Of a DNA stretch of 64,000 nt, positions 123 through 49,355 are shown piece after piece. Every line of letters begins with the position of its first letter. Positions within the stretch are counted from its first letter, which is position 1. Both the position numbers and the translations under genes were made by a program. The notes under the pieces were generated by a model. The model made no database searches. It was not told the DNA's origin and saw nothing but the letters and a program-made list of their open reading frames with translations. Source of the DNA: Verrucomicrobiota bacterium (GTDB lineage: Bacteria > Verrucomicrobiota > Verrucomicrobiia > Chthoniobacterales > UBA10450); the NCBI GenBank assembly GCA_003218135.1, contig QHNQ01000028.1:1-64000 (forward strand), written 5' to 3'.

Positions 123-881
123 ATGCTTGTTCCGGAAATCGTAGCGGCAGGCGGCGGTCTCCTGTTTGCGTTCGACCACGCGACGATCGCTGGGAAGCTC
201 GTTCTCACTCTTCTGGCCGTCGCATCCATTTTCAGTTGGTCGATTATGATCACCAAATTGCGCGTGATCCGTTTTGCGCGAAAACAAAATGCGCGTTTTC
301 TCGCGGCGTTCCGGAAAGATCGACAACCGCTGCGTCTGTTTGAGAAGAACGCGCGGTTTCCCGGGTCACCAGTTTTTAACGTGTACCGGGCCGGGTGCCA
401 GGAGATGACATTTCATCTGCTCGGATCGCCTGAGGTAGATGATACGTTTCGCGCTCGACTTGAGATCGCAGACAAAATTTCGCCGGCGCAAATGGGCGCG
501 GTCAACGCGGCGATGGAACGTGCTGTCGGCGAAACAGCGCTTTCACTTGAATCGCAGATGATTTTGCTCGCCACCGCCGTGAGCGGTTCACCCTTTCTTG
601 GATTGCTCGGCACAGTTTGGGGCGTCATGGACGCGTTCACTGGTGTGGCAGAAGCCGGTTCGCCCAGCCTCGTCTCCATGGCGCCGGGCGTGTCCGGCGC
701 GCTTATCACCACGGTGACCGCACTGTGCGTCGCCATTCCAGCGATGTTTGGTTACAATTTTCTCGTCACTAGCATTCGCGGGATGATCGTGGAGATGGAT
801 AACTTCGCAGCCGAACTCGCGTCCGAGTTCGAGCACAAATATGTCGATCACGGCACGCGTGAGGTCGCATTGCGGAGATGA
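123..881 (+). CDS. exbB: MotA/TolQ/ExbB proton channel family protein
   Basis: ORF with the typical GLLGTVWGVMDAF and ALITTVTALCVAIPAMFGYN motifs; followed by an ExbD-like gene. Confidence 0.9.
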   Translation: MLVPEIVAAGGGLLFAFDHATIAGKLVLTLLAVASIFSWSIMITKLRVIRFARKQNARFLAAFRKDRQPLRLFEKNARFPGSPVFNVYRAGCQEMTFHLLGSPEVDDTFRARLEIADKISPAQMGAVNAAMERAVGETALSLESQMILLATAVSGSPFLGLLGTVWGVMDAFTGVAEAGSPSLVSMAPGVSGALITTVTALCVAIPAMFGYNFLVTSIRGMIVEMDNFAAELASEFEHKYVDHGTREVALRR

Positions 882-902
882 TCAGGGTCCATCTTTCCTT
901 CG

Positions 903-988
903 GCGTTGAGCGTTGGGCGTTGAGCGTTGGGCGTTTGTGGAAAAGCTTTTTCAGCACTCAACGTCCAACGTCCAACATCCAACACCCA
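903..988. repeat. Heptad-periodic inverted repeat element A (gcgttga/gcgttgg x4, then acgtcca/acatcca/acaccca)
   Basis: Left arm 903-930 is four consecutive 7-mers; right arm 961-988 is four 7-mers that are near reverse complements. Confidence 0.85.
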
Positions 989-1002
989 ATTCAGAAGCCG
1001 TG

Positions 1003-1419
1003 ATGAGACGCTACTCACAACGCCAGAGTCTCTCCACTCTCAGCGAGATTAACGTCACGCCATTGCTGGATCTGGCATTTGTGCTGCTCATCATCTTCAT
1101 GATCACAACGCCGCTGTTGGAAAGCAGCGTGAATCTGGTGATCCCATCCAGTGGCGCGACGAATCCGCCAATCAAGCCGGGGCGAGTGCAAACCGTCTCG
1201 ATCGATCGCACGGAAACGATTCGCTTTAACAATCAAGTCACGGACCTGAACAAGCTCACTGCAGAATTGACCGAGTTACAACAAACGAATCCTAATGTCG
1301 CCATCGTGATTCGGCCCGATCGAGATTTGCCTGTGCAAAAATTAATCGGGCTAATGGACGCCGTGCAACGGGCGGGAATCACGAAGGTCGGAATTGCTAC
1401 CAGAGCGGAACCGAAATAA
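1003..1419 (+). CDS. exbD: ExbD/TolR biopolymer transport protein
   Basis: MRRYSQ...LSEINVTPLLDLAFVLLIIFMITTPLL motif; the longer ORF start at 913 runs through the repeat, so ATG 1003 is preferred. Confidence 0.9.
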   Translation: MRRYSQRQSLSTLSEINVTPLLDLAFVLLIIFMITTPLLESSVNLVIPSSGATNPPIKPGRVQTVSIDRTETIRFNNQVTDLNKLTAELTELQQTNPNVAIVIRPDRDLPVQKLIGLMDAVQRAGITKVGIATRAEPK

Positions 1420-17335: not shown

Positions 17336-17443
17336 ATGGTAAAAAGGTGAAAGGTTGAACGGAATTTCACCTTGGCTGTCGGTTATCAGTCATCTGATCA
17401 ACGATCGCTGATCGCCGGGATTGATGTGCAAATCCGATCAATA

Positions 17444-19905: not shown

Positions 19906-19994
19906 GCCGCCTTCGGATAGAGCGGCGAGACTGGGGCTACGACGGGCAGGCGGGTGACGAGAGAACCCGTCCATGATATACTGGTTCAACTGAT

Positions 19995-20022
19995 CATTCG
20001 TCACTCATCACTCATCACTTTC
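19995..20022. repeat. Heptad repeat (cattcgt cactcat cactcat cactttc)
   Basis: Consecutive 7-mers ending 4 nt before the ATG at 20027. Confidence 0.6.
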
Positions 20023-31581: not shown

Positions 31582-31642
31582 AATGACGAATACCGAAGAC
31601 GCGGCTTGGCTTGGCTTTTCGTCATTCGGCTTTCGTCATTAT
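31582..31642. repeat. Heptad-periodic inverted repeat element D (aatgacg aataccg aagacgc / cttttcg tcattcg gctttcg tcattat)
   Basis: 7-nt phased arms, reverse complementary; right arm overlaps the carA stop. Confidence 0.75.
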
Positions 31643-38366: not shown

Positions 38367-38373
38367 ATGAGGG

Positions 38374-38489
38374 ATTAGTGAGAAGTGATTAGTGAGAAGT
38401 GAGAAGCAAATTCTGCAACCGTGGACCTCTCAGATCTCACTTGTCACGTTTCGCGCGCCAGTTGCACCTTTCACTAATCACCTGTCATT
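38374..38489. repeat. Heptad-periodic inverted repeat element C (attagtg agaagtg attagtg agaagtg ... / cactaat)
   Basis: 7-nt phased left arm 38374-38408; right part has rc units (tcactaatcac, ctcacttgtcac). Confidence 0.7.
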
Positions 38490-48215: not shown

Positions 48216-49256
48216 ATGTTCAACGGACTTTTCGGCTGGTTATCCAGCGACATCGGCATCGATCTCGGGACGGCAAACACTCTTGTTTACGTAAAAGACC
48301 AGGGGATCGTCTTACGTGAGCCATCGGTGGTAGCCGTGCAGGCCGGAACCAACAGAGTCCTGGCAGTCGGTGACGAAGCCAAGCGCATGCTCGGCCGCAC
48401 GCCGGCGAATATTGTCGCGGTGCGTCCGCTAAAGGATGGCGTGATTGCCGACTTCGAAGTTACTGAGGCAATGTTGCGGCACTTCATCAGCAAAGTGCAT
48501 AACCGGCGGGTACGCGCCAGGCCGCGCGTAGTGATCGCAGTGCCTTCCGGAATTACCGAAGTGGAAAAGCGCGCTGTACGTGAATCCGCGACGCACGCCG
48601 GTGCGCGCGAAGTTTATTTGATCGAGGAACCGATGGCGGCGGCAATCGGCGTGGGACTCCCAGTACAGGATCCGGCAGGCAACATGATCATCGATATCGG
48701 TGGCGGCACGACCGAAGTCGCTCTTATTTCACTTTCCGGAATTGTGTTCAGTCGAAGCGTGCGCGTCGCAGGCGATGAGTTGGACGAGGCCATCGTACAA
48801 TACATGAAGCGCGCTTACAATTTGATGGTCGGCGAACGCACGGCAGAAGAAATCAAGATCAAGATTGGCTCGGCGTATCCGAGCGAAAAAGAAACCAGCG
48901 TTGAAGTGAAGGGGCGCGATCTCGTCGCTGGTTTGCCAAAAACGCTCATGATTACTTCACAGGAAGTGCGCGAAGCGTTGCTCGAACCGATCTCCACCAT
49001 CGTTGATTCCGTGCGTATTACCCTCGAACGCTGTCCTCCTGAACTTTCGGCGGATCTTGTCGATCGCGGATTGGTACTGGCGGGCGGAGGTGCGTTGCTA
49101 CGGGGCTTTGACAAACTTTTGAGTGAGGAAACAGGTTTGCCTGTCCATGTAGCTGAAGATCCGCTTAGTGCAGTGGCGGAAGGGACCGGCAAATGCCTCA
49201 ATGAACTTAAGTTTCTGCGTCAGGTCGCTTCAGCCGATCGCCAGTGGCGCGGATAA
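48216..49256 (+). CDS. mreB: Rod shape-determining protein MreB
   Basis: [40 protein letters not shown]. Confidence 0.98.
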
Positions 49257-49352
49257 TTGCGGATTGACGATTTCGGATTGCGGATTGACTTCCGTTCTTC
49301 CGCTGATTTCGATCTCAATCAAGTCCAAACGCGCAATCTGCAATCCGGAATC
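49256..49352. repeat. Heptad-periodic inverted repeat element B (attgcgg attgacg atttcgg attgcgg ... / cgcaatc tgcaatc cggaatc)
   Basis: 7-nt phased arms, reverse complementary, ending 4 nt before the mreC ATG. Confidence 0.85.
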
Positions 49353-49355
49353 GAC

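Follow-up and report, generated by a model that had tools for sequence, protein, structure and literature searches.

A hairpin of inverted 7-nt repeats between exbB and exbD belongs to a dispersed repeat family of Udaeobacter-like Verrucomicrobiota

Introduction

What is the inverted repeat, phased in units of seven nucleotides, that fills the gap between the exbB-like and exbD-like genes of an uncultured Verrucomicrobiota bacterium of soil, and how might it have come to lie and remain there? The DNA analysed here, referred to as the window, is the 64,000-nt stretch formed by positions 1 to 64,000 of contig QHNQ01000028.1. It belongs to a 2.75 Mb draft genome whose closest named relatives are metagenome-assembled genomes (MAGs) of soil Verrucomicrobia, including Candidatus Udaeobacter sp. 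Repeats of 7 nt have been known since 2007 to be over-represented in bacteria, without an accepted cause (reviewed in PMC4679880 and PMC4692102).

Results

Structure of the exbB-exbD element and of similar sites in the window

As a whole, the exbB-exbD element (window 902-986) has two arms in inverted orientation, each consisting of five 7-mers built on the word CAACGYY. The features of the junction are as follows:

123..881, plus strand: exbB-like gene (MotA/TolQ/ExbB; Pfam PF01618, E 1.2e-26), upstream neighbour of the element, with its TGA stop at 879-881
902..936, minus strand: left arm of five heptads, AAACGCC CAACGCT CAACGCC CAACGCT CAACGCC as read on the minus strand
937..951, no strand: loop of 15 nt between the inner arm ends, GTGGAAAAGCTTTTT
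952..986, plus strand: right arm of five heptads, CAGCACT CAACGTC CAACGTC CAACATC CAACACC
987..995, plus strand: terminal motif CAATTCAGA, which recurs at many of the family's other arms according to a flank profile of 121 arms
1003..1419, plus strand: exbD-like gene (Pfam PF02472, E 2.4e-28), downstream neighbour, with its ATG 7 nt past the terminal motif

The letters and coordinates reported for 903-988 in a preliminary description of this DNA were correct, and so was the distance of 14 nt between position 988 and the exbD ATG at 1003. Folded as RNA, the element reaches z-scores of -4.9 and -4.7 on the two strands against dinucleotide shuffles, none of the 200 shuffles being its equal. No T-run follows the stem, positions 987-1002 reading CAATTCAGAAGCCGTG. 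As for Rfam, no family was found at or above its gathering cut-off for the element, the sole pass in the whole window being a tRNA; only miRNA precursor models matched the element below threshold, as expected for a long hairpin.

Three other sites of the window carry structures of the same kind, each with its own words, and a fourth carries a single arm:

31582..31641, no strand: inverted heptads with the word GAATGAC, hairpin z -5.6
38373..38482, no strand: inverted heptads with the words AGTGAGA/AGTGATT, in a divergent gap, z -4.4
49256..49353, no strand: inverted heptads with the word CGGATTG, downstream of mreB (MreB, PF06723), z -3.8
19989..20019, no strand: lone heptad arm with the word ACTCATC, just before an ATG, with neither inverted partner nor hairpin (z +0.6)

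Five further sites had initially been listed beside the exbB-exbD element. Those at 31582, 38374 and 49256 are retained, while the one at 19995 is the single arm given above and the one at 17341-17410, with no detectable lag-7 tract and a weak fold (z -2.3), is left out of the class. The proposal that such elements form one class, having the 7-nt period and the inverted layout in common and differing in their words, is supported.

Abundance and distribution of the heptad repeats

Period-7 tracts were counted in 444 kb of DNA chosen blind to the element, namely the window, ten contigs from the genome that it belongs to, and the first contigs from each of four other genomes of the same genus. 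This sample holds 24 such tracts vs. 0.3 in dinucleotide shuffles (about 80 times more). Period 8 is less enriched (8 vs. 0.8), no enrichment over the shuffles was seen in these 444 kb for periods 5, 10, 11 and 13, and period 14 and multiples of three are also enriched, the latter being expected in coding DNA. With long-ORF cores taken as the measure of coding DNA, only four of the 24 period-7 tracts lie within them, even though these cores represent 67% of the 444 kb. The preliminary description would have been abandoned had there been no excess of such tracts over shuffled DNA, or had the element been identical to a named repeat family; the excess is present, and no such identity was found.

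The exbB-exbD element is a member of a dispersed repeat family with dozens of related hairpins. With up to two mismatches, the pattern CAACGNCCAACGNCCAAC has 112 matches in the own genome vs. five for the reversed control, and matches were found in all 34 sampled genomes of the same genus. Concerning the other families of the order, the counts are mostly at control level, with exceptions that include G036 and G045. Across the phylum, a stricter pattern has a patchy distribution (34 of 196 genomes), and the copies sampled from distant families comprise several with the same inverted layout and others that are long direct arrays. In L353, L354 and L355, which come from other families of the phylum, words resembling those of the CAACGYY family (AACATYG, GTTGGAC/GTGGGAC) form long direct heptad arrays, not short inverted arms, and the array of L355 reaches the contig end.

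Arm units and their pairing

Arm length has a preferred value: among 155 distinct CAACGYY arms, the mode is five heptads (81 arms), followed by six (41 arms), the sixth unit being in some cases the terminal near-heptad. The arm unit is usually [RAACGYC](CAACGYY)x4, starts mostly with RAACG and often ends with CAATTCAGA or a closely similar sequence. Single arms are common in the arm sample. Adjacent arms of the final arm sample are inverted in 45 pairs out of 45, 34 in the CAA-then-TTG and 11 in the TTG-then-CAA order, with no direct pair; in the more common order the loop is often just TTCAGA. At the exbB-exbD orthologs, every complete heptad pair has the TTG-then-CAA order, which is the rarer one overall.

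Within an element, the left and right arms have an identity of 0.754, which is no higher than the 0.765 obtained when arms are exchanged among elements of the same group. For two loci followed through orthologs, identity is 0.70 between left and right arms, 0.86-0.88 for the same arm between species and 0.76 between different loci; each arm is therefore inherited separately, and the complementarity of the arms stems from family membership. The base-level co-evolution of the arms that had been suggested earlier does not agree with these values, left-right identity being lower than that between loci.

Concerning word composition, AA or TT was observed in 90% of the lag-7 tracts (78% of the distinct words) vs. 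56% of the flanking DNA, which is a trend only, because the words are not independent.

The exbB-exbD junction across the order

The exbB-exbD gap was compared at 66 junctions with both ends recognised. It measures -4 nt, i.e. an ATGA stop/start overlap, in 29 of them, 3-48 nt in nine and 73-187 nt in 28. The long gaps hold a heptad hairpin, a GTCATGTCGAGCGAAGTCGAG...GACTCCGCTGCGCTCCGCTCGGAATGACA hairpin, a CAGGAAAGC hairpin or a CACGGATGAA hairpin; their fold z-score is below -2 in 24 of the 28 (86%), and the main stem covers 0.88 of the gap vs. 0.71 in shuffles.

Sister rows differ in their state: L036 is empty and L043 has the heptads, L031 is empty and L035 has another hairpin, L032 has the heptads and L047 another hairpin. 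When mapped on a tree built from exbB plus exbD, the heptad state requires five changes, at least four of which are forced by well-supported branches. The ancestral state is likely the 4-nt ATGA overlap and, since many outgroups have this overlap, the inserts are probably derived; a single old insertion followed by several precise losses could also have produced the pattern. The earlier suggestion of an RNA hairpin or a mobile unit gains support here, for one or both of them: a given junction is occupied in relatives by the same hairpin, by one built on other words or by an unrelated hairpin, or is empty.

The GTCATGTCGAGCGAAGTCGAG...GACTCCGCTGCGCTCCGCTCGGAATGACA hairpin family, which is unrelated to the heptads, was seen at the exbB-exbD junction of L035, L037, L047, L054, L069 and L070, and positions 1-77 of the window, just before exbB, resemble a copy of it.

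Other junctions and copies within genes

Downstream of mreB (window 49256), the CGGATTG hairpin is present in the own genome and in L242, L244, L247, L249 and L250. At the same place, L239 has a mixed CAATCGG element and L240 a GAAACCG/CTATCCG element, both within flanks 84-90% identical to those of the window, and L255 and L262 have unrelated hairpins. At junction C (own copy L148:19016-19105), the CAACGYY hairpin is kept in six of the eight compared species; in L182 one arm is exchanged for another hairpin, and L207 has a GTTTGAT-type inverted heptad element. As for junction B, in L185, L195 and L197 a GTCATGTTGAGC hairpin is nested in the loop of an inverted repeat with the words GTTGAAGCG/TTAACG.

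Copies were also observed within genes. In uvrA, in-frame CAACGYY arms occur at L032:811-903, L039:1372-1464, L109:1577-1669 and L033:1545-1637, in the loop that runs from the ABC signature to Walker B (LSGGESQRLKL...LFIFDEPTTGLHF); the same site in other species is taken up by heptads with the word AAATCAG, AATCCGC or AAACCGG, or else the loop is short. The uvrA gene of Opitutus terrae (Verrucomicrobia) has been reported to be interrupted by REPs (PMC3733652). A gene for a PMT-type mannosyltransferase of the own genome (L148:17211-17299, C209) also contains in-frame heptads, and in its orthologs either other heptad words are present in frame or the loop is shorter, all intervals having a length divisible by three. 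Finally, at L148:15902-16072, an apparent tRNA gene has a CACTGAT heptad array on one side and a GATTTCC/GATTGCC one on the other.

Conservation, folding strand and gene orientation

The element is conserved above four-fold sites. Mean identity of the exb gap is 0.746 vs. 0.515 at the four-fold sites of exbB (eight carriers), and that of junction C is about 0.775 vs. 0.449 (six carriers, average of 15 pairs), both comparisons being made among recognisable carriers only, so that they may overstate the constraint. By heptad phase, ortholog identity is highest at AA (0.96 and 0.99 at two loci). Covariation is weak, a kept two-sided change being found in 2 of 31 and 1 of 30 predicted pairs. No consistent strand preference was seen in the folding energy, which favours the sense strand in 11 cases, the antisense strand in seven and neither in three, these orthologs not being independent. 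In the genus DNA, gaps with hairpins are fewer between divergent genes (8-15%) than between co-directional (26-44%) or convergent ones.

Discussion

Possible origin and role of the hairpins

The explanation that we favour, tentatively and at a little under an even chance, is that of a repeat family resembling REPs, of which copies are inserted at gene junctions and then maintained as gap-spanning hairpins in the mRNA. The unit would be the arm of about five 7-mers, single or as an inverted pair, the whole working like a REP dimer, and its copies would be inserted at gene junctions by some enzyme. In a polycistronic mRNA, the arm pair would form a stem-loop over most of the inserted gap, and such folding within the transcript is probable for the exbB-exbD element. 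The stop of exbB and the start of exbD might in this way be brought side by side at the base of the stem, thereby keeping the translation of the second gene tolerable. Such a junction would then take almost any hairpin and little else, and a hairpin already in place would be retained under constraint; a junction with an overlapping-gene past may thus bear a hairpin but not an open 120 nt spacer. Enzymatic insertion, action at the RNA level and the coupling benefit are the steps of this account that we infer.

A tolerance of hairpins over open spacers fits the 86% of long exb inserts with z below -2, vs. 26-44% of co-directional gaps, and the lower hairpin share of the gaps between divergent genes. 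In favour of the explanation as a whole are also the 112 vs. five matches in the genome and the matches in all 34 same-genus genomes, the mode of five heptads, the 0.88 of the gap covered by the stem, the unrelated hairpins at the same junction, the sister species that differ in state, the identity of retained copies above that of four-fold sites, the higher identity of ortholog arms (0.86-0.88) than of arms from different loci (0.76) and the inversion of all 45 adjacent pairs. Against it stand the few compensatory changes, the lack of a consistent strand preference in folding energy, the common single arms, which could not bridge a gap, and the fact that some copies lie within reading frames or between divergent genes, for which coupling is irrelevant.

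A somewhat unlikely alternative is a purely selfish hairpin repeat, functionless, moved by a hairpin-recognising transposase (RAYT-like Y1 or other) and confined to junctions only because genes rarely tolerate its copies. It would account for the presence, absence and replacement of elements between sister species, the many copies per genome, the patchiness in the phylum, the in-frame copies in tolerant protein loops and the REP-like arrangement of the units (PMC3733652), yet the conservation in place above four-fold sites argues against it. Concerning movement by Y1, heptad tracts near Y1 loci are at about background level (six in 90.8 kb vs. 24 in 444 kb). Target duplication, which a MITE would be expected to show, was not established either, the flank repeats having a mean of 4.53 vs. 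4.29 for swapped flanks (P 0.05).

A RAYT/Y1 transposase as the mover is not supported by the 30 Y1_Tnp loci, which show no heptad enrichment. The L042 copy lies between two copies of a 10-nt repeat, AAGTGATGAG, that at first resembled a target duplication, but close relatives suggest a secondary origin. As for the duplicated ATGA at exbB-exbD, it proves no target duplication, because selection requires ATGA.

It is improbable, in our estimate, that the class is defined by structure and not by sequence, i.e. that an inverted layout with a phase of 7 nt, in which the words are interchangeable, is made or kept by a process responding to the layout only. Under such a process, related species would swap word families at one junction, because the junction or the machinery would select a gap-spanning hairpin and not a motif.

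Quite improbable is an operator, on DNA or RNA, for a protein that reads an AA.TT step every 7 bp, the arms being arrays of binding sites. The AA phase, the most conserved between orthologs (0.96 and 0.99), and the share of lag-7 tracts with AA or TT in the word (90% vs. 56% in the flanks) are in line with it, and a post-transcriptional binding protein has been proposed for the TAACTGA repeats (PMC4679880). However, different word families and unrelated hairpins interchange at the same junction, the flanking genes are unrelated, and a site array needs no strict inverted pairing.

A model based on the preliminary description, in which arrays arise and drift by 7-nt slippage while template switching keeps the arms complementary, is also given a low probability. 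Expansions to ten or more near-perfect heptads do exist (L112 and L126), and an occasional 7-nt gap is seen, in two orthologs (alignment A1), but length change is rare in orthologs, whose differences are mostly substitutions. Slippage is possible without being the rule, since arm length has a preferred value, and the shared end motifs point the same way. Nor are the own arms of an element more alike than swapped ones, and independent local slippage does not predict one word at many loci.

Finally, a transcription terminator or attenuator, which the strong stem-loop in the gap and the strong hairpins common in convergent gaps might evoke, is hardly credible for a stem without a following T-run, with copies also within open reading frames and between two genes that probably form one operon, given their neighbouring position and, in many relatives, their 4-nt overlap.

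Returning to the REP-like family kept as mRNA hairpins, if these hairpins do hold stop and start together, they would help explain the accumulation of palindromic repeats within operons of one common group of soil bacteria. One junction, in dozens of related species, is found empty, with heptads of one word, with those of another word or with an unrelated hairpin, and repeat origin, replacement and constraint are therefore directly testable.

Comparison with known repeats

REP elements with GTAG or CGTC tags resemble the present elements in being palindromes scattered through intergenic DNA, which occur singly or as inverted dimers in either polarity; their direct dimers are rare, and REPs also occur in reading frames (PMC3733652). 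Each REP unit, however, is by itself a short hairpin with a tag and a 5-13 bp stem (PMC3733652), whereas the arm alone is here an array of heptads and not a hairpin: a single arm is non-palindromic, and the lone arm at 19989-20019 does not fold (z +0.6). No GTAG or CGTC tag appears in the flank profile of the 121 arms, CGTC being internal to the repeated word, and heptad tracts are at about background density at the 30 Y1_Tnp loci, in contrast to the GTAG REP/RAYT arrangement of a tyrosine transposase gene flanked by the repeat.

The heptads also resemble the cyanobacterial STRR heptamers, which are likewise heptanucleotide tandem repeats dispersed in the genome. The latter are direct tandem arrays and have been used for fingerprinting. 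To our knowledge, they have not been described with inverted pairing or a preferred arm length. In Calothrix, three kinds of dispersed heptanucleotide tandem repeats (STRR) are known (cited in PMC4692102).

Like the present elements, the TAACTGA repeats are intergenic 7-nt units, often a short distance upstream of start codons and patchy across phyla (PMC4679880). They are found in Beggiatoaceae, Cyanobacteria and Bacteroidetes, as direct repeats (169 sets) with one inverted case; related heptamers are rarely or never repeated in that genome, and the reported strain differences are mostly 7-nt indels (PMC4679880).

With the GGGAATC repeats of Xanthomonas, the present elements have in common intergenic 7-nt tandem units in inverted pairs. 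The Xanthomonas repeats are intergenic heptamer arrays with a preferred number of four units and many inverted pairs (70 and 75 cases); most of them occupy the same gene pairs in the two species, few lie between divergent genes, and no function has been found; the GGGGA(C/T)T repeats of Nostoc are related to them (PMC4692102). The Xanthomonas repeats, from another phylum, are G-rich, quadruplex-capable and of 2 to 26 units, and their word, (GGGANTN)n, differs from CAACGYY. Here, by contrast, there are many words in one genome, a mode of five units plus an end motif, and other hairpins replacing the element at the same junction.

In the literature that we searched, no repeat family of Udaeobacter had been described. 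Since inverted pairs of heptamer arrays have been published for Xanthomonas, where they are unexplained, the CAACGYY elements of Udaeobacter-like genomes are regarded as a variant of a kind already known.
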